NCBI GenBank assembly: GCA_013388755.1
Contig: JACAEQ010000028.1
Location: 1-64,000 of the forward strand
Reading direction: 5' to 3'
Length of the DNA stretch: 64,000 nt
Source: Chloroflexota bacterium
GTDB taxonomy: Bacteria; Chloroflexota; Chloroflexia; Chloroflexales; Roseiflexaceae
The notes under the pieces are model-generated. The model had not been told where the DNA came from. It ran no database searches and saw nothing but the letters and a program-made list of their open reading frames with translations. Within the stretch, counting starts at the first letter, position 1. Every line of letters begins with the position of its first letter. Shown here one piece after another: positions 11,076 through 62,787 of the stretch. The position numbers and the translations under genes were made by a program.

Positions 11076-11205
11076 GGCCGAAAAACGCTACGCCTGTTGT
11101 CATTGCGCGGAGCGTGAGCGACAGCTTGCAGCGAGCGACGCCTGGCTGAAGCAATCTCCGCTCACGCCGCTCGATTGCGTCGCTTCGCGCGCAATCGACC
11201 AGCCA
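11076..11205. mobile_element. Family 1 element, divergent copy
   Basis: CCGAAAAACGCTACGC followed shortly by GTCATTGCGCGGAGCG matches the left half of the copy at 39881. It continues with AGCAATCTCCGCTC and a GATTGCGTCGCTTCGC segment as in the copy at 5-152. The terminal CCTAT has degenerated to CTGG. It occupies the gap between two minus-strand genes. Confidence 0.6.
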
Positions 11206-11222
11206 GGCAAATGCCAGTGCCC

Positions 11223-11310
11223 ATCCGCCGGCGGGACAACGTTCGTTTCCGCGTTACGACCGCCTTCCCGCTGGCGGATGATTGACCCTGGAGGGCGGCT
11301 CGCCCTCCAG
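11223..11310. repeat. Two adjacent inverted repeats in the GT2-rmlD gap
   Basis: ATCCGCCGGCGGGA (11223-11236) pairs with TCCCGCTGGCGGAT (11266-11279), 13 of 14 bases. Next to it, CTGGAGGGCG (11288-11297) and CGCCCTCCAG (11301-11310) form a perfect 10-bp stem with a 3-nt loop. The second hairpin could terminate or stabilise the minus-strand rmlD-like transcript, but no T-run follows on either strand. Confidence 0.5.
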
Positions 11311-11336
11311 TCCACCCTGCTGGTACGCCACCGCGT

Positions 11337-11441
11337 ACGTCGTGTCACATAAGGCTTTAGGCACCGCACCGCCCCCACCCAACCTCCCCTCACTGGGGGG
11401 AGGGCTGGGGTAGGGATGACGGGCATAGATGAAACGTATTG
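11337..11441. mobile_element. MITE-like element, family 2, diverged copy
   Basis: The segment ATAAGGC, then CACCGCACCGCC, CCCACCCAACCTCCCC, a GGGGGGAGGG arm and GATGACGGGCATAGATGAAACGTATTG matches, in reverse orientation, the element at 14002-14138. The inner GC-rich palindrome is intact, whereas the left terminal repeat has decayed. With the two preceding repeats this fills nearly the whole 429-nt gap, in which I see no gene. Confidence 0.6.
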
Positions 11442-13413: not shown

Positions 13414-13932
13414 ATGAGCAGCGATAGCTACGATACGCTGCGGCGGGCCGTCGTTGAGGCGCTCGGATCACGCCCTGCGCCAGAGCGGCGTCGCCAGATC
13501 GCCGCCGAACTGCGCGCGCTTGCCGAACAGCAGGAGCGCATGGCACTCCACGCCGAACAGCGTGCCACAGGAGCGAGCGCACCGCCGGCTGGCCAGGCCG
13601 CGCCTGAGACACGTGAACGCAGCGCCGGCATGTATGTTCGCATCCGCCACGAATCAGACCCGCAGACCGGCACGCGACGGATCCGCCTCTTGCTTGGCAA
13701 GCCCATCTGGTTTGAGCTTGGTAGCCCTGAGCGTATCACCATCCAGCGCGTTGGAACGGAAATCTGGATTGTTGCGGCCAGAGGCGCGGGAGGGTTGCGT
13801 CTCAGCACCGACATTGGCCTGCCGGGCTGCATTGTCCCGAAAGGCGACCCGCTGGAACAACTGCCTCCCGGGCGATATGCCGCGACTCTACGCGCCGGCG
13901 CCCTCATCGTCGGCGCGCGTGTGGCGCAGTAG
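13414..13932 (+). CDS. Hypothetical protein paired with the radical SAM gene
   Basis: I do not recognise this 172-aa protein. Residues 1-50 look helical and charged (RRRQIAAELRALAEQQERMA). A polar Ala/Pro linker follows, and residues 70-170 look beta-rich, with IRLLLGKPIWFELGSPERI and a Gly/Pro turn pattern suggesting a small barrel. There is no signal peptide or transmembrane segment. It starts 12 nt after the radical SAM gene and is probably cotranscribed, so it may be that enzyme's substrate, chaperone or partner. That is inference from position only. Confidence 0.6.
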   Translation: MSSDSYDTLRRAVVEALGSRPAPERRRQIAAELRALAEQQERMALHAEQRATGASAPPAGQAAPETRERSAGMYVRIRHESDPQTGTRRIRLLLGKPIWFELGSPERITIQRVGTEIWIVAARGAGGLRLSTDIGLPGCIVPKGDPLEQLPPGRYAATLRAGALIVGARVAQ

Positions 13933-14001
13933 CACCGCAGCAACGTACCATCGCGTTCCCGGCACGCCCGCCATTCCCATGAGTTCTGTGTACGTTTAGA
14001 A

Positions 14002-14138
14002 GAAATACCTTTCACATACGCCCATCATCCCCACCCCGGCCCTCCCCCACCGGGGGAGGGAGTCCGACTCCTCCCCCCAGCGGGGGGAGGTTGGGTGGGG
14101 GGCGGTGCGGTGCAGAACGCCTTATTTGAAAGGTATTG
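14002..14138. mobile_element. MITE-like element, family 2, intact copy with 9-bp target duplication
   Basis: A 137-bp non-coding element with terminal inverted repeats AATACCTTTCA (14004-14014) and TGAAAGGTATT (14127-14137), a GC-rich inner palindrome (CCTCCCCC...GGGGGAGG), and flanking direct repeats CGTTTAGAA at 13993-14001 and 14139-14147. The 9-bp duplication is the signature of a transposition event. It lies between the radical SAM pair and a convergent minus-strand gene, filling most of a 297-nt gap. Confidence 0.8.
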
Positions 14139-14229
14139 CGTTTAGAAAAGCGGCACGAGCGGCTCACAAGCCGCCCGTACCGCTCACCATGGCGCGCTAT
14201 GCGCCGCCGGCACACGTGTACCCTGCCTT

Positions 14230-14448
14230 TTAGCGACGGGTGGCGGGCTTCACCGGGCAGGTGTTGATGCCCAGCACAGAGTAGAGCGGGCAGACACCGA
14301 AGATTGCCGTCGCCAGTAAGACAACCGCCACAACGCCGGCGATAATCTGCCACAGGCCACTCAGACCCATAAACGTGGCGACCAGCAGAACAATGCCAAC
14401 CACCGCGCGAATGCCGCGATCAAGTGTACCTTCATTCTGGGTAAACAT
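14230..14448 (-). CDS. DUF2892 (YgaP-like) small inner-membrane protein
   Basis: A 72-aa protein with an N-terminal polar segment (TLDRGIRAVVG), two closely spaced hydrophobic helices, and the C-terminal FGVCPLYSVLGINTCPVK typical of DUF2892 proteins. These often accompany sulfurtransferase or sulfur-trafficking genes, none of which is adjacent here; the function is unknown. The start at 14448 has AAGGAA upstream; the longer reading back to 14493 adds residues unlike the family. Confidence 0.8.
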   Translation of the reverse strand: MFTQNEGTLDRGIRAVVGIVLLVATFMGLSGLWQIIAGVVAVVLLATAIFGVCPLYSVLGINTCPVKPATRR

Positions 14449-14589
14449 TGTTGTGTTCCTTTCCGTATTGTGCAGGATGGATGAGCGCTTCACTCTTTGA
14501 ATGCGCCGGGCGCCAAAAGGTTACGTCACTGCCGGCCAATTTCGTACAACACAACCAGCGCCGCAATCGCAACATTGAGCGAGGATACG

Positions 14590-21354: not shown

Positions 21355-22662
21355 TTAGTTGCAGGTTACTTGCCCGGCGCTCACCGTTGTTCTGCGACCA
21401 TCCAGATTCGGATCCGGGTATTGCGCGCTGGTCACATCGGTTATGATGTCCAGGTTGTCACGTGCACGATACACATCATTCAGGCAGATCGTGATCTGTC
21501 CGTTGGCATCGCTGGTGCCGTTGAGCGTCGTTTCTGGCGCCGCACCGCTGATCATGATTCCGAAGCCTACTCCCGGAACAAGATTGCCCAGGTCATCGCG
21601 CACGACGATAATTATGCGTAGATCCGCTAACTCCCCTGCCGGTGCGTTCGAGTCGATCTTCTTGTAACCATACACTGAGTAGGAAATCGGGCGTGGCGTC
21701 GGCGTCGGCGTAAAAGTTGGTGTCGTAGTTGTTGTTGGCGACGGTGTCGGTGTATTCGTCCGCGTCGGCGTATTCGTCCGCGTCGGCGTGTTCGACGGTG
21801 TCGGTGTGTTCGTCCGCGTCGGTGTGTTCGTCCGCGTCGGCGTGTTCGACGGCGTCGGCGTTATAGATGGCGTACGCGTTATGGACGGCGTGCGTGTCGG
21901 CGTGCGCGTATTGGTCGGTGTACGGGTATTCGTCCGCGTCGGCGTGTTTGACGGCGTCGGCGTGTTCGTCCGCGTCGGCGTGTTCGTCCGCGTCGGCGTG
22001 TTCGACGGCGTCGGTGTGTTCGACGGCGTCGGCGTGTTCGTCGGTGTGTTCGACGGCGTCGGTGTGTTCGACGGCGTCGGCGTATTGGTGCGTGTTGGTG
22101 TGTTCGACGGCGTTGGCGTTTCTGTCGGTGTTGCGGTTTCCGTCGGTGTCGCGGTTTCCGTCGGCGTTGGCGTATTGGTCGGCGTATTCGACGGCGTCGG
22201 CGTCGCCTGGACCACTGAGGCAATGTCGCAGTCGGTCGTGATTGAACGCGCAGCGACGGCGTCAACATCAATCTGCGGGATGAATGCACCGACAATCGGG
22301 TCAAACGGGCGCAGTTCATACTGCAACGAGACGGTCACCGGATCGGTGTAACGCCAGCGCAGGTTGCCGTTGGCATCGGTGCTCCAGCTGATATTCGGCG
22401 TGATGACGCTGGTGTCGACGAATACCGGCATGCGACTACGAGTATCAGCAATGATCCTGTCAATATCGGCCTGGCTGGGGCAGGGGCGCACTGCTGCGCT
22501 CCGTGCACCTTCACGAGCGGCATTCTGCAACTGAACGTAAACGAACACCATGTACCCGAGCTCGATCACGCCCAGAATCAGCAGCAGCAAGAGCGGCAAA
22601 ATAATGGAGAACTCAACCACGCTCTGCGCGCGTCGTCGTCCGGTTGTTGTGGGCAAGGGCAT
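21355..22662 (-). CDS. TadE-like pseudopilin with Thr/Pro-rich stalk and Ig-like tip
   Basis: The 435-aa protein begins as a TadE pseudopilin ([22 protein letters not shown], conserved Glu, long helix [15 protein letters not shown]). It continues with a repeat stalk of about 170 residues (about 153-324) built from [12 protein letters not shown] and TPTETA units, and ends in a domain of about 110 residues ([23 protein letters not shown]...[13 protein letters not shown]) that looks like a bacterial Ig-like or carboxypeptidase-regulatory fold. TadE proteins are usually 120-200 aa, so this is an extended, probably surface-exposed form. Start 22662 has GAGGA; 22692 is also possible. The repeat DNA is in-frame, with a period near 18 nt. 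Confidence 0.8.
21690..22210. repeat. In-frame minisatellite encoding the Thr/Pro stalk
   Basis: On the plus strand the DNA is a degenerate array of GGCGTGTTCGACGGCGTC and GGCGTGTTCGTCCGCGTC-type 18-mers plus shorter hexamer steps. All are multiples of three, so recombination would lengthen or shorten the stalk without breaking the frame. The open frame on the opposite strand is an artefact of the repeat. Confidence 0.85.
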
Positions 22663-35083: not shown

Positions 35084-35782
35084 ATGAAGCAACGAAACCT
35101 TATGTTCACCATCGTGATCGCCGTCTGTATCGCGGCGGTCGGTATTGGACTGGCGATCGCTGCGTCGTTCGGTATATTGAATGTTGCGTCTGCTCCGGCA
35201 GCAATCGCCCCGACGGCGGTGCCTACGATCGCCACACCGACCATCGCCGCGCCCGCCACCGCCATCCCGACCACCGCCATCCCGGCCACCGCCATCCCGG
35301 CCACCGCCGTCCCGGCCACCAGCGCGCCCGCTACCGCCGTCCCGACCACCACCGTTCCGGCCACCACCGTTCCGACCACCGCCGCGCCCGCTACTGCCGT
35401 CCCGACCATCACCGTTCCGGCCACCGCCATCCCGGCCACCAGCGCGCCGGAATCGCAAGGACAATATATCGAGTACACGGTCCAGCGTGGCGATACGCTC
35501 TTTGCAATCGCGCGACTGTACAATGTGACGGCCGAAGATATTCTGGCAGTCAACACAATTGCCAATCCAGCCAGCCTTACCATCGGCCAGGTGTTGCGGA
35601 TACCGACCGGCACGGCCACGACGCAGATCGTCGAATACACGGTACAGCCGGGCGACATCCTGGTCGTGATTGCGCGCCGGTTTGATGTGACCGTCGAGGA
35701 AATTCTGGCAATCAACACCATTCGCGATCCATCGAACCTGACGGTCGGCCAGGTGCTGCGGATACCGAGGAGAACACCATGA
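35084..35782 (+). CDS. Membrane-anchored LysM protein with Ala/Thr/Pro stalk
   Basis: The 232-aa protein has an N-terminal hydrophobic anchor (residues 7-30), a stalk of about 85 residues of PATAIP, PATAVP and PTTTVP repeats, and two C-terminal LysM domains (IEYTVQRGDTLFAIARLYNV... and VEYTVQPGDILVVIARRFDV...), each ending IGQVLRIP or VGQVLRIP. LysM domains bind peptidoglycan or other N-acetylglucosamine polymers, so it is an extracytoplasmic wall-binding protein. The start has only a weak ribosome-binding site; ATG 35102 is possible. The last four bases overlap glcD (ATGA), an odd coupling of a wall protein with a flavin oxidase. The stalk DNA is an 18-nt in-frame repeat. Confidence 0.85.
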   Translation: MKQRNLMFTIVIAVCIAAVGIGLAIAASFGILNVASAPAAIAPTAVPTIATPTIAAPATAIPTTAIPATAIPATAVPATSAPATAVPTTTVPATTVPTTAAPATAVPTITVPATAIPATSAPESQGQYIEYTVQRGDTLFAIARLYNVTAEDILAVNTIANPASLTIGQVLRIPTGTATTQIVEYTVQPGDILVVIARRFDVTVEEILAINTIRDPSNLTVGQVLRIPRRTP

Positions 35783-50369: not shown

Positions 50370-52787
50370 ATGCGCCTGCGAATATCCCCGGCCGTCGCAA
50401 CATTCAGCGTCGACATCTTATTGACGCTTGGGATTGCCCTGGTTGCTGCCTGGTTGTTGCTGCGGCCACTCGAAACCCGGCACGTCATCACCGTTGGCGC
50501 AAACGATCGCGGCGTCAGCGGCGGATTGCATGAGCCGGAAATCAGCGCCTCGGAGGGACGCCCCTTCCGCTGGACCACGGGCCTGGCGACGATTCGCCTC
50601 GCTGCGATGGGCTTCAGTAACCATTCACTCGGGCTGCGCATGTCGAGCGCTGCCGGTGCGTCGTCGCTGCTCGTCTCCCTCAACGAAAAGGAACTCGCCA
50701 CACTGGCGGTGACCCCGGCGCCGCGTACATATCACCTGTTCATCCCCGCCGAATGGATACGCGCCAGCGGCAACACCGTGACAGTACGCAGCGCCACGGT
50801 CCAGCAACCCGGCGACCGGCGCGATCTTGGCGTGGCGCTCTTTTCTGTCGGGCTCGCGGCGCTCGACGCGCAGTGGTGGCTGGCGCCGGCACAGACGGCG
50901 GCAATCACCTGCGCGACGCTGCTGTTACTGTTCACGCTGCGCCGCCTCGACGCCGGGCGAATCCGCTGGCTGATTGCGATCCTGTTCGCCGCGATCAGCC
51001 TGAGTATGCGCCATTCCGATCTGCGCTTCAACCAGCGCTGGGAGGCGCTGCTGCTGACGCTGGGCATGGCAGGCGTATTCATACTTGGCCTGACGCTGAT
51101 CCGTGTCAGTGCGCCCGATAGCCGTCTGAAGCAATCCAGCACGGGTAACCGTCCACCTTCAACCTTCAACCTTCAACTCTCAACCCTCATTTTGTACACC
51201 TTGCTTACCATCCTCCTACTCGCCCCGCTCATCCCCAATCCCGCTACCCATATTCCCGGCCCTCCCGGCGACAATCTGGAGTATGTCTGGAAGATCCAGT
51301 GGTTCGCCAGCGCCCTGGCAGAACGGCGCTCGCCGGCCTTCGTACCGCACCTCTTTTTCCCTGCCGGTTACGAACTGGCCTATTCCGAGTTATCCCCGGC
51401 GCATACCTTGCTCGGCCTGCCTCTCACTGCCGTGAGCGGTGCGGTCATCACGTACAACGTCCTGATTGCAACCTCATTCGTGCTGACCGCACTCTTTACC
51501 ATGCTTCTGGCGGAACGTATCGGCGCAGGAACCTTCGGCGCATTCATTGCCGGCGCCGGCGTCGGGTTCTGTCTGTGGCGGTATCAGCATATTCTCGGGC
51601 AGATGAACATGATCGGCACGCAATGGGTCGTGCTGGCGATCTATGGCCTGGAAGGGTTTCTGCGCCAGCGCCGTACCATTGATGCGTTACTGACCGGGCT
51701 TGGCGTCGCACTGGCGGCATGGTCATCGTGGTATTACGGGCCGACACTCTGGCTGTTGCTGGCGCTCTGGGCGCTGCTACGCTGGCCATGGCGCGAGACG
51801 CGCGCGATCCTAGCAGCATGGCGCCCGGCCCTGGCGGCGCCGCTTGTGGCGCTCGCGCTGCTCGCCCCCTACGCCCACCCGACTGTCCAGGCCCTGCGGG
51901 GCGGTGAGACGCGCCACGATTACGCCATGCTCCTGCTCCTCTCGGCACGCCCGCTCGACTATCTCGCACCAAGCCGCTATCATGCGTTGTGGGGGGGCTG
52001 GGCAGCACGTGTCGCGTCGGACACTGCCGGGGCGCAACTGGTTGCGCCCGGTGTATCGCTACTCATCCTGGCCGGCGTCGGTTTGTGGCGCTGGCGCAAG
52101 CAACGTGTGGCGTGGATGCTGTTTACCGTGGGCACAGCAAGTGTCGTGATGAGTCTGGGACCGGAGTTACGCGTCGGTGATGCCGTCATCCCGCTGCCGG
52201 CGTTACTGGCCTACGACTATGTTCCTGTGCTGGGCAGCATTCGCAGCTGGTCGCGCGTCGCGCTGTATGCGCAGATCTGCATCGGCCTGCTGGCGGGCCT
52301 CGGCCTGGCGGGATTCGCGCAGTGGCGCCGGCCCGGGCGTATCGCGGGCGCCATCCTTGTACTGGGGGTCGTGCTGGAGATCATGCATGCCGCACCCTGG
52401 CATACGACGACCGGTCCACGTCCGGTTGACAGATGGCTGGCACAACAACCAGGACGCGGCGCGACGCTCGAGGTTCCTGACTCATTCGCCGGCCCGATTG
52501 AATACTACACCCTCTTCTCAGGGCATCCGAGCCTGACAGGGTATGGCACATTTGAACCTGCCGGCGCAACTGCCGATATGGCATGGTTGCGCGAGTTTCC
52601 GTCGGCCCGCTCCGTGACGACGATCCAGCGCCTCGGCGGTGAATATGTACTCGTCCAGCGTGACGCAATGGACCGCGCGCGGCCGGGATGGCGCGACCAG
52701 GCAATGCAGCGACCAGAACTGGCGCGGGTATATGATGATGAGACGTATACTGTTTATCAGGTTAGAACGTTGAACGTTAAACGTTGA
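50370..52787 (+). CDS. Large membrane protein, GT-C/YfhO-like
   Basis: The 805-aa protein has an N-terminal helix (about 15-33), an external beta-rich domain (about 35-165), and about a dozen hydrophobic segments. It is related to the 576-aa protein at 42117 through GPPGDNLEYVWKIQWFASAL and RPVDRWLAQQPG. Three CTTCAAC heptamers (51157-51177) encode a polar STFNLQLST loop between membrane segments. The C-terminus runs into the heptamer array, and its last codons and stop lie within it, so its true end may vary. The start is 12 nt after the GT4 gene. Confidence 0.65.
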   Translation: MRLRISPAVATFSVDILLTLGIALVAAWLLLRPLETRHVITVGANDRGVSGGLHEPEISASEGRPFRWTTGLATIRLAAMGFSNHSLGLRMSSAAGASSLLVSLNEKELATLAVTPAPRTYHLFIPAEWIRASGNTVTVRSATVQQPGDRRDLGVALFSVGLAALDAQWWLAPAQTAAITCATLLLLFTLRRLDAGRIRWLIAILFAAISLSMRHSDLRFNQRWEALLLTLGMAGVFILGLTLIRVSAPDSRLKQSSTGNRPPSTFNLQLSTLILYTLLTILLLAPLIPNPATHIPGPPGDNLEYVWKIQWFASALAERRSPAFVPHLFFPAGYELAYSELSPAHTLLGLPLTAVSGAVITYNVLIATSFVLTALFTMLLAERIGAGTFGAFIAGAGVGFCLWRYQHILGQMNMIGTQWVVLAIYGLEGFLRQRRTIDALLTGLGVALAAWSSWYYGPTLWLLLALWALLRWPWRETRAILAAWRPALAAPLVALALLAPYAHPTVQALRGGETRHDYAMLLLLSARPLDYLAPSRYHALWGGWAARVASDTAGAQLVAPGVSLLILAGVGLWRWRKQRVAWMLFTVGTASVVMSLGPELRVGDAVIPLPALLAYDYVPVLGSIRSWSRVALYAQICIGLLAGLGLAGFAQWRRPGRIAGAILVLGVVLEIMHAAPWHTTTGPRPVDRWLAQQPGRGATLEVPDSFAGPIEYYTLFSGHPSLTGYGTFEPAGATADMAWLREFPSARSVTTIQRLGGEYVLVQRDAMDRARPGWRDQAMQRPELARVYDDETYTVYQVRTLNVKR
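51157..51184 (+). repeat. CTTCAAC heptamers inside the 805-aa membrane protein gene
   Basis: CTTCAAC is repeated three times (51157-51177) with a degenerate fourth unit, TCTCAAC. Seven is not a multiple of three. The unit is close to the reverse complement of the CGTTGAA unit in the array at 52768. Confidence 0.7.
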
Positions 52788-52921
52788 ACGTTAAACGTTG
52801 CACGTTGGGCGTTGCACGTTGCACGTTGCACGTTGGGCGTTGCACGTTGCACGTTGGGCGTTGCACGTTGCACGTTGGGCGTTGCACGTTGCACGTTGAG
52901 CGTTGCACGTTGCACGTTGGG
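52768..52921. repeat. 22-copy heptanucleotide array (CGTTGCA/CGTTGGG)
   Basis: Twenty-two consecutive heptamers of the form CGTTGNN or CGTTAAA fill 52768-52921. The second half repeats a 21-nt super-unit, CGTTGCA CGTTGCA CGTTGGG. The array begins in the last codons of the 805-aa gene, carries its stop, and ends 19 nt before the next start. Related CGTTCAA/CGTTGAA motifs flank the reductase gene at 62789-63784. Confidence 0.9.
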
Positions 52922-60694: not shown

Positions 60695-62734
60695 TCACCG
60701 CAAATACTCGCTCACCTGGCGCACCCCGTCGGCGGCGCCATACCAGAGCAGGTATGCGACGATCGTGATGGTCAGTGCAATTCCGGCGCGGCCGCGGCGG
60801 CGCCAGAGCGCCAGCGCCACACCCGCGCCCAGGCACAGCGCCGGGTAGAGAAAGAGCGTCCAGCGCACCGGTTGGTCGCTGACAATGAGGGTGCCCAGGC
60901 TCAGCAGCGTGCCAATCCAGCACGCCGCCAGCACGCCGCCGAGATCGGCCTTGCGCGACCGCACGATCAGCACCGCGCCGGCCGCGCCCGCCGCCAGTAT
61001 GAATGGCGATACCGGCGCGGCCGCGCCAAGAACCAGCCCTGCCACCCACCAGTTCAGTTTGTCGGGCAGCAGATCGCCGGGCGGGCAGATCACTCCCTGC
61101 GCGGCAAGTTCCTGCTGTGCAATACGCCGCGCGTCGGCAACGTAGCCGAATGCAGAGTAGAAGAGCGCCAGCGCAAGGATACCCGCAGCAACCATCGCAA
61201 CGCCGTGCGTCCAGGCGAGACGGGCGCGAACGTGGCCATCATTCGCCTGCGCCGCCCACAACTGCAACGAGAGCCAGACCGCCAGCGCCGCGCCGGTGGA
61301 GAGGGCAACACCGCCATGGCTGAGCAGGATCATCGCCAGGAGTGCAGCGCTGGCCGTCGCCAGGCACCGTGAACCGTCGCGCGTGGCCAGCGTGAGCCAG
61401 ATCAGCAACGGAGCAACAAGCGCCTGCGCCAGCAGATTCGCCATTTCACCAACCGAGTAGGAACGCAGCAGCGGCGGCGCGAGCGTATACAGCACCGCAC
61501 TCACCAACGCCGCGCGCCGGCTCACTCCCACGCGCCGCAATAGCAACCAGAGCAGCGCCGTCGTCAGACTCTCAAGCAGCGCCGTACCACCGCGCACCAG
61601 CAACGTCAGCGCCTCGCGATCCGCGCCGCCGAGCAGTACGCCCGGCAGCAGCACCAGGTAGCCGCCCGGCGGGTAGGGCTGCGGCCCGGCGCCCGCGCGG
61701 CACGGCAACCCTTCGGTGAACAGGATCATGCCGCGCGCAACATCGGCCAGGTTGTTGACGTGCAATCCCAGATCGCTGGTGCGTGCATACGGATGCAGCA
61801 TCCCACCCATACGTGCAATGAACGCAGTTGCCGTCAACCCTGCGGCTGCCGCTCCGTCCTCGCGCTGGATGGCGCGCAACCCCGCCTCGACCATTGCGGC
61901 AAGTGGGTACGCTGCCCACAGCAGACCGGTAACAATCGGTGCAAACACCGCCAGATCCATGCGGCGCGCAGCAAGCATCCAGGCGCCGAACGCTACAACC
62001 GCCAGCGCCAGGAGCAAGGCAAACCGGTCGCCGACCCTGCCCGGCGGCAGGGAGCGCCGGGCCAGCACGTACATCCCGATGATCGCTGCCGCCAGCGTGA
62101 GCAGCATCACCGGCGCCGGGTGGTAGGGTGCGGCACCTGCCGGCCCGGCCATAACGCGGAACACAACCAGCCCGAGGGTGCGCGGGTCCGCCGGTGCCAC
62201 AAAGGGCGCCGTTTCCAGCATGACCTGCAGGTTCCCCACAGGATCGGCGTGAGCAAGTACGGCATATGTGCGCGGCCGGGCATCGATCTGGAGCGTGGCA
62301 GACATGGCACCGGTGCGCCAGACGCTTGCGATCGACCGACCATCCGGCCACCCGCTGGCGGCGGTCACATGCACCACCCACAGGTCGCCGCCGGCAGCCG
62401 GCAAGGTGATTGCCGCACGGTCAGTGGCCCAGCGGTAGGGCGGCGGCGCACCGGCGTGCCAGGGGCGGCCCGGCAGATCGGCAGGTTCCGCGTCGTTAAA
62501 ACCGGTAAGAAACGGAGTATCGAAACCGCGCAGGCGCGATACGGCGTCGCCGCCAATATCGAGGCGCACCGGCGACGCTGCCTGGTAGGCAAGGGTCCAG
62601 AGGAACAGACCGGCACCCAGCGCAAGCCACAACGGCAGCGCACGTACAATCGCGCCGAGCCGTCGGAGTTCGGCGACAACCCGGCGCGCGGGAGAAAGAT
62701 GAGCGGCGCTAGAATGCGAAGATACCCGGTTCAA
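60695..62734 (-). CDS. Multi-pass membrane protein, GT-C-like
   Basis: The 679-aa protein has an N-terminal helix (about 38-55), an external domain (about 60-205) and about twelve hydrophobic segments, with TEGLPCRAGAGPQPYPPGGYL in a loop. The architecture, an early anchor followed by an external beta domain and then the membrane part, matches the 805-aa protein. The start is uncertain: only a TTG at 62734, inside a CGTTCAA repeat cluster, gives a full N-terminus, and no ribosome-binding site is clear. A TTG near residue 36 is possible but would cut into the helix. Confidence 0.55.
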   Translation of the reverse strand: MNRVSSHSSAAHLSPARRVVAELRRLGAIVRALPLWLALGAGLFLWTLAYQAASPVRLDIGGDAVSRLRGFDTPFLTGFNDAEPADLPGRPWHAGAPPPYRWATDRAAITLPAAGGDLWVVHVTAASGWPDGRSIASVWRTGAMSATLQIDARPRTYAVLAHADPVGNLQVMLETAPFVAPADPRTLGLVVFRVMAGPAGAAPYHPAPVMLLTLAAAIIGMYVLARRSLPPGRVGDRFALLLALAVVAFGAWMLAARRMDLAVFAPIVTGLLWAAYPLAAMVEAGLRAIQREDGAAAAGLTATAFIARMGGMLHPYARTSDLGLHVNNLADVARGMILFTEGLPCRAGAGPQPYPPGGYLVLLPGVLLGGADREALTLLVRGGTALLESLTTALLWLLLRRVGVSRRAALVSAVLYTLAPPLLRSYSVGEMANLLAQALVAPLLIWLTLATRDGSRCLATASAALLAMILLSHGGVALSTGAALAVWLSLQLWAAQANDGHVRARLAWTHGVAMVAAGILALALFYSAFGYVADARRIAQQELAAQGVICPPGDLLPDKLNWWVAGLVLGAAAPVSPFILAAGAAGAVLIVRSRKADLGGVLAACWIGTLLSLGTLIVSDQPVRWTLFLYPALCLGAGVALALWRRRGRAGIALTITIVAYLLWYGAADGVRQVSEYLR

Positions 62735-62787
62735 CGTGTAACGTTCAACGTTGAACGTTCAACGTTTCGGCGTTCAACATTCAACGT
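62735..62787. repeat. CGTTCAA-type repeat cluster
   Basis: ACGTTCAACGTTGAACGTTC continues with CAACGTTTC, CGTTCAACATTC and AACGT up to the stop of the AcuI-like gene. A smaller version (CGAACGTTCAACGCTC) lies beyond the other end of that gene at 63818-63833. The AACGTT centres are palindromic. Confidence 0.7.

Follow-up and report, generated by a model that had tools for sequence, protein, structure and literature searches.

The element in the window and its family

The window analysed here is a stretch of 64,000 nucleotides from a Chloroflexota bacterium of the Roseiflexaceae (contig JACAEQ010000028.1, positions 1 to 64,000), whose genome, designated G000, is a 5.08 Mb draft in 145 contigs. 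A miniature inverted-repeat transposable element (MITE) is situated at 14003-14138 of the window, between two genes which converge on it. The element itself is ordinary and adds one more member to a known class. Sister copies in the same genome carry its second hairpin in duplicate around short unique inserts, and the possible origin of these structures is the main subject of this analysis. The features of the locus are as follows.

13414..13932, + strand: flanking gene of 172 aa with no Pfam family, converging on the MITE
13993..14002, unstranded: left target-site duplication CGTTTAGAAG, 9/10 identical with the right copy
14003..14138, + strand: MITE copy of 136 bp with no coding function, from a high-copy family of its own genome; ends and duplication checked
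14003..14014, + strand: left terminal inverted repeat of 12 bp, family form CAATACCTTTCA, with first base A in this copy
14040..14060, + strand: first C/G hairpin, 9-3-9
14062..14098, + strand: 37-bp unit composed of 8 nt, a 9-3-9 hairpin (the second of the element) and 8 nt; single copy in the window
14127..14138, - strand: right terminal inverted repeat, reverse complement of CAATACCTTTCA
14139..14148, unstranded: right target-site duplication CGTTTAGAAA, 9/10 identical with the left copy
14230..14493, - strand: flanking gene of 87 aa with a YgaP-like transmembrane domain (PF11127), converging on the MITE
11337..11441, - strand: diverged relative, apparently the right-hand portion of a longer composite element, with no left terminus found

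The preliminary description of this locus had proposed a 137-bp element with inverted ends and a 9-bp target duplication. Both ends, AATACCTTTCA at 14004-14014 and TGAAAGGTATT at 14127-14137, are present precisely as it gave them, and so are the copies of CGTTTAGAA on either side at 13993-14001 and 14139-14147. Comparison with the family moved the borders to 14003-14138, reducing the length to 136 bp, and corrected the target duplication to 10 bp; 9 bp had been seen because the window copy combines a 9/10 duplication with a mutated first base. The case for a recent transposition, also proposed there, is weak for this copy, whose duplication differs at one position and whose terminal base is mutated. 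The predicted RNA fold of the window MITE is much stabler than shuffled sequences on both strands (z -5.4 and -4.8). As the stability exceeds that of the shuffles in both directions, the strong hairpins between the two convergent genes probably act as a two-way transcription terminator. The Rfam search of the window returned no known RNA family.

The family is abundant in its own genome. Near full-length matches number about 40 among the 40 of 170 candidates that were scored. With up to one mismatch allowed, the 12-bp end CAATACCTTTCA was counted 207 times, whereas its reversed pattern gave 5 matches. To analyse two-ended copies, 54 pairings of ends were collected from the fetched loci; after removal of two spurious overlapping ones (lengths 197 and 229), 52 copies were left, which represent a part of the copies in the genome. 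The commonest length among them is 136 bp (23/52). Identity between the flanks peaks sharply at 10 bp, with a mean of 0.86 over the 54 pairings compared to 0.15-0.30 at lengths 4-9 and 11-15. The 10-bp duplication is perfect in 25 of the 52 copies and 9/10 in another 11, so that 36 reach at least 9/10, while in 1000 trials of random re-pairing of the flanks such copies numbered 0.9 on average and never more than 4. The consensus of the target is palindromic, GNNCTAGNNC. Being short, non-coding and present in many copies with conserved terminal inverted repeats and target duplications, the element is confirmed as a MITE, and its copy number, conserved ends, target duplications and lack of coding capacity likewise bear out the spread by a DDE transposase. 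Among 25 genomes of the bacterial family, full-length matches were found in the own genome only; G004 and G015 match in the core alone. Comparison with an empty site gave no result in the nearest relatives (Roseiflexus metagenome-assembled genomes and others, L151-L154), which share the upstream neighbour at 65-68% identity and whose contigs stop or become divergent short of the insertion point.

The preliminary description had attributed the movement to an IS4 or IS5-group transposase. Duplications of the IS5 family are short in most groups and 9 bp in the IS903 group; the 10-bp duplication of the MITE speaks against this family. The IS4 half of the attribution is favoured by the end consensus as well as by the duplication length. 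For the IS4 subgroup of the IS4 family, the 2008 review of the family (PMC2266710) describes ends of the form -AATR--------WTW and direct repeats of 10-13 bp. This consensus fits the left end in 43, the right end in 45 and both ends in 39 of the 52 copies, and the 10-bp duplication falls within the range of the subgroup. The MITE would be a non-autonomous element, moved in trans by an IS4-subgroup transposase which recognises CAATACCTTTCA and produces 10-bp duplications on the palindromic GNNCTAGNNC. It differs from the subgroup as described there in having no transposase gene. A search of the genome with the exact ends, the surroundings of the 4 PF01609 hits and the single ends that were fetched gave no autonomous partner with CAATACCTTTCA ends, within the limits of a draft of 145 contigs and a subset of single ends.

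Another transposase family with duplications of about 10 bp, for example ISAs1, is unlikely to be the mover instead of IS4. ISAs1 produces duplications of 8-10 bp, and contig C13 encodes a 371-aa DDE transposase with DDE_Tnp_1 and DDE_Tnp_1_assoc domains, a combination which we take to be that of ISAs1. Near this gene no CAATACCTTTCA-like ends were found (best 3 mismatches), and the IS4-subgroup signature at both ends of most copies argues against such a family.

Duplicated hairpin units around unique inserts

The 37-bp unit GTCCGACTCCTCCCCCCAGCGGGGGGAGGTTGGGTGG is symmetric about the second hairpin of the MITE. On contigs C1, C75, C83, C86 and C120 it is present at least twice around a short insert, and a diverged copy is likewise duplicated around an insert where contigs C79 and C84 end, two sites which we infer to be the two ends of a single array. 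These six sites are referred to as repeat-spacer-repeat (R-S-R) loci. The borders of the unit are equal at all six, the left one lying before GTCCGAC (or GCCCGAC) and the right one after GGTTGGGTGG (or a variant of it). Small deviations are seen in C75, where the first unit is shorter by one G, and in C120, where the second unit stops one base short and the right end of the MITE is missing. The inserts measure 38 bp in C83, 34 bp in C75 and 37 bp in C86, C120, C1 and C79/C84. At C75 (L069), C83 (L258) and C86 (L070) both MITE ends are kept, with target duplications of 10/10, 10/10 and 9/10, which places the insert inside a transposed MITE. The sites on C1, C79 and C84 reach contig ends, and in C1 and C79 one insert is repeated in tandem with a period of 74. 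No duplication of the first hairpin (14040-14060 type) at CRISPR-like spacing was found.

In pairwise comparison, none of the six inserts resembles another more closely than shuffled controls do (10% level). A joined query of all six found in the own genome no loci but these, the rest of the matches having E of at least 0.5. An origin of the inserts from the own genome was considered and is unsupported, as this query gave no other genomic copies.

The distribution of such structures was analysed in 100 genomes. The strict unit pattern was found in the own genome only (1/100), while a looser hairpin pattern with free spacing of 54-84 bp was found in 4/100. G043, which belongs to another family of the order, possesses a related MITE with left end CAATACCATTCA and three units of 35-37 bp whose borders are as in the own genome; its 36-bp insert is present in two nearly identical copies. 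G015 contains tandem hairpin arrays with a period of 60-62, units of 23-25 bp and inserts of roughly 36-38 bp (L232, L239, L259). The match in G045 is a short-period repeat of a different type.

Host CRISPR-Cas systems and the candidate origin of the inserts

The host genome possesses two cas1 genes associated with clustered regularly interspaced short palindromic repeats (CRISPR). One lies on contig C36 in a type I-B system with cas8b1, cas7, cas5, cas3, cas1 and cas4, and in its array 14 copies of a 37-bp repeat enclose 13 spacers of 35-38 bp. On contig C140 (L114:11653-15015) genes for a reverse transcriptase (RT), Cas1 and Cas2 stand in a row with CARF-type CRISPR proteins nearby, and this RT-Cas1-Cas2 set is possibly an RNA-spacer-acquiring system; its array has a 37-bp repeat and 5 spacers of 36-39 bp. 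The MITE unit has the same length as both real repeats, and the inserts of 34-38 bp are close in length to the real spacers of 35-39 bp. When all 200 windows of the window MITE on both strands were compared with the C140 repeat, the reverse complement of the unit was the best, sharing 18/37 positions with the hairpin in the same register. With the I-B repeat the unit shares 12/37 positions and takes the 20th place of 200.

Judged as CRISPR arrays, the six loci and G043 display equal direct repeats and unique spacers of similar length. Several different spacers per array are not found in them, and the repeat is not common with a cas-linked array of the host (best 18/37). Without these two defining features, the R-S-R loci do not qualify as CRISPR arrays.

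At a CRISPR repeat, Cas1-Cas2 makes an insertion of fixed length together with a target duplication of fixed length at one symmetric site. A preference of Cas1 for stem-loops and integration outside arrays are on record in PMC9456107 and PMC11788318. The fixed-length insert and fixed-length duplication at the MITE hairpin mirror this action, and together with the recorded stem-loop preference and off-array integration they favour stray spacer integration. The interpretation put forward, which we judge to be about evenly poised between right and wrong, is that of an IS4-type MITE whose second hairpin took stray spacer integrations by Cas1-Cas2. The stray target would be the 37-bp unit formed by the second hairpin and the 8 nt to its left and right. 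Prespacers would be joined to both edges of this imitation of a CRISPR repeat, and gap repair would then duplicate the unit, the expected product being a foreign-looking insert of 34-38 bp between two copies of the unit, as at the six sister loci. Two loci may have expanded later into tandem arrays of one spacer. The likeliest agent would be the RT-Cas1-Cas2 of C140; in the 37-bp repeat of that contig the hairpin stands in the same register as in the MITE unit. A wider proposal, in which the MITE family came to mimic a CRISPR repeat, the host RT-Cas1-Cas2 writes spacers into MITE hairpins genome-wide and the dispersed transposable mini-arrays show the birth of CRISPR loci, is offered tentatively, as a possibility held with less confidence.

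Along with the missing autonomous partner, the following points weigh against the interpretation put forward. The 34-bp spacer of C75 is under the range of the real arrays. The identity of 18/37 is weak, being reached by 211 of 127,928 windows in the 64-kb stretch. Each R-S-R locus has one distinct spacer, and C1, C79/C84 and G043 repeat their own spacer in tandem. No leader was identified beside the MITE units, though no search for one was made. The six insert cores gave no protospacer in viral contigs, and the inserts gave no convincing match in phages and plasmids; as one spacer core from a real array, used as a yardstick, was likewise without a match in viral contigs, this lack is uninformative rather than supportive. 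Finally, G015 has hairpin arrays while no Cas1 was detected in it by PF01867, hinting that some other process may make such arrays.

The alternative which survives best, though we consider it doubtful, is that the element is a plain MITE and that the R-S-R structures are minisatellite-like by-products: the C/G hairpin would stall replication, template switching would bring in a short piece of other DNA and copy the hairpin again, and slippage would then multiply the unit. The arrays of G015 without Cas1 speak for it, and the tandem arrays with one spacer in C1, C79/C84 and G043 fit ordinary tandem repeats. A MITE of Porphyromonas gingivalis is described with an internal 23-nt minisatellite without spacers (PMC4596501), and tandem repeats posing as CRISPR are described as common (PMC5294841). 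However, slippage does not explain an insert that neither the MITE nor any other part of the genome contains, nor equal unit borders at 6/6 loci with different inserts, nor insert lengths limited to 34-38 bp, and the first hairpin of the MITE, which was never found duplicated at that spacing, also speaks against this explanation. Descent of all R-S-R elements from one insert-bearing MITE that spread by transposition, with inserts diverged or replaced since, agrees with the near-identical units across loci and with the end types of the carriers (three CAAATAAGCTCTTCGCC, two CACATACG), but it is very improbable, as the inserts are dissimilar while the flanking MITE halves are well conserved, and as the carriers are spread over more than one end type and extend to another family of the order.

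The R-S-R loci can be placed beside three known systems. The BrickBuilt MITE of P. gingivalis is similar in being a MITE with an internal direct-repeat array; its repeats, as described in PMC4596501, are of 23 nt and without spacers, whereas here 37-bp hairpin units flank unique inserts of 34-38 bp. Off-target integration (Nivala et al. 2018, as cited in PMC9456107 and PMC11788318) likewise produces spacers outside CRISPR arrays; it is reported there for Cas1-Cas2 overexpressed in the laboratory, while the present loci are putative natural products, arising repeatedly at one hairpin of one MITE family. Viral mini-CRISPR arrays (PMC8616872) are comparable in that a mobile element carries two repeats with one spacer between them, but their repeats are described as copies of the host CRISPR repeat, while the MITE unit shares 18/37 positions with one. 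For MITE-embedded, spacer-like hairpin duplications no description was found in the open-access literature searched, and in that literature they are undescribed. If the interpretation is true, the loci would be spacer integrations that went off target in nature and favoured one particular hairpin. The emergence of CRISPR repeats from transposon palindromes could then be tested directly within a single genome, which offers six occupied sites and, for control, many sister copies without an insert. Should Cas1-Cas2 not be the agent, some Cas-independent process would be inserting pieces of 34-38 bp and duplicating a constant 37 bp, for which a new mechanism would be needed.

Variant copies and other repeats

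A diverged relative of the element had been proposed at 11337-11441. Its right terminus TGAAACGTATTG does end at 11441; a left terminus and a duplication were not found there. The segment seems to be the right-hand end of a longer composite element at about 11200-11441 of the window. This element shares GGTACGCCACCGCGTACGTCGTGTCACA and neighbouring sequence with L061 and L071, in which its upstream part is also present. Single family ends at contig breaks, among those inspected, mostly lead into the usual C-rich core.

Some copies show other forms. L094 (C36:73656-73726) is a 71-bp element with family ends and a perfect 10-bp duplication around a different core which is not C-rich. L113 (C120:51659) is without a right terminus, and its second hairpin unit runs directly into a perfect duplication of 10 bp, with TGTCTAGAAC on either side of the element. 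A different insertion sequence with ends like CTCTCAAGGGTAGAGTTTTT is nested in the C/G core of three MITE copies, L077 (C117 end), L089 (C65 start) and L091 (C97 start).

Another palindromic repeat (GGTGTTCGGAYAGGCTCT..) is associated with the family. Its GGAYAGG/CCTRTCC motifs adjoin 13 of the 52 MITE copies (L088, L022, L028, L043, L069 and L070 among them), and MITE copies often sit at its CTNAG centre. This repeat resembles IS5-type ends.

Elsewhere in the window, seven-base tandem repeats (AACCTTC, ACGTTGC, GTTCAAC) are found at 51147-51189, 52767-52919 and 62729-62787. Long tandem repeats occupy 21739-22185 and 35230-35448 with periods of 18/54 bp and 15/30/60 bp; as these periods are multiples of three, the long repeats are possibly coding.
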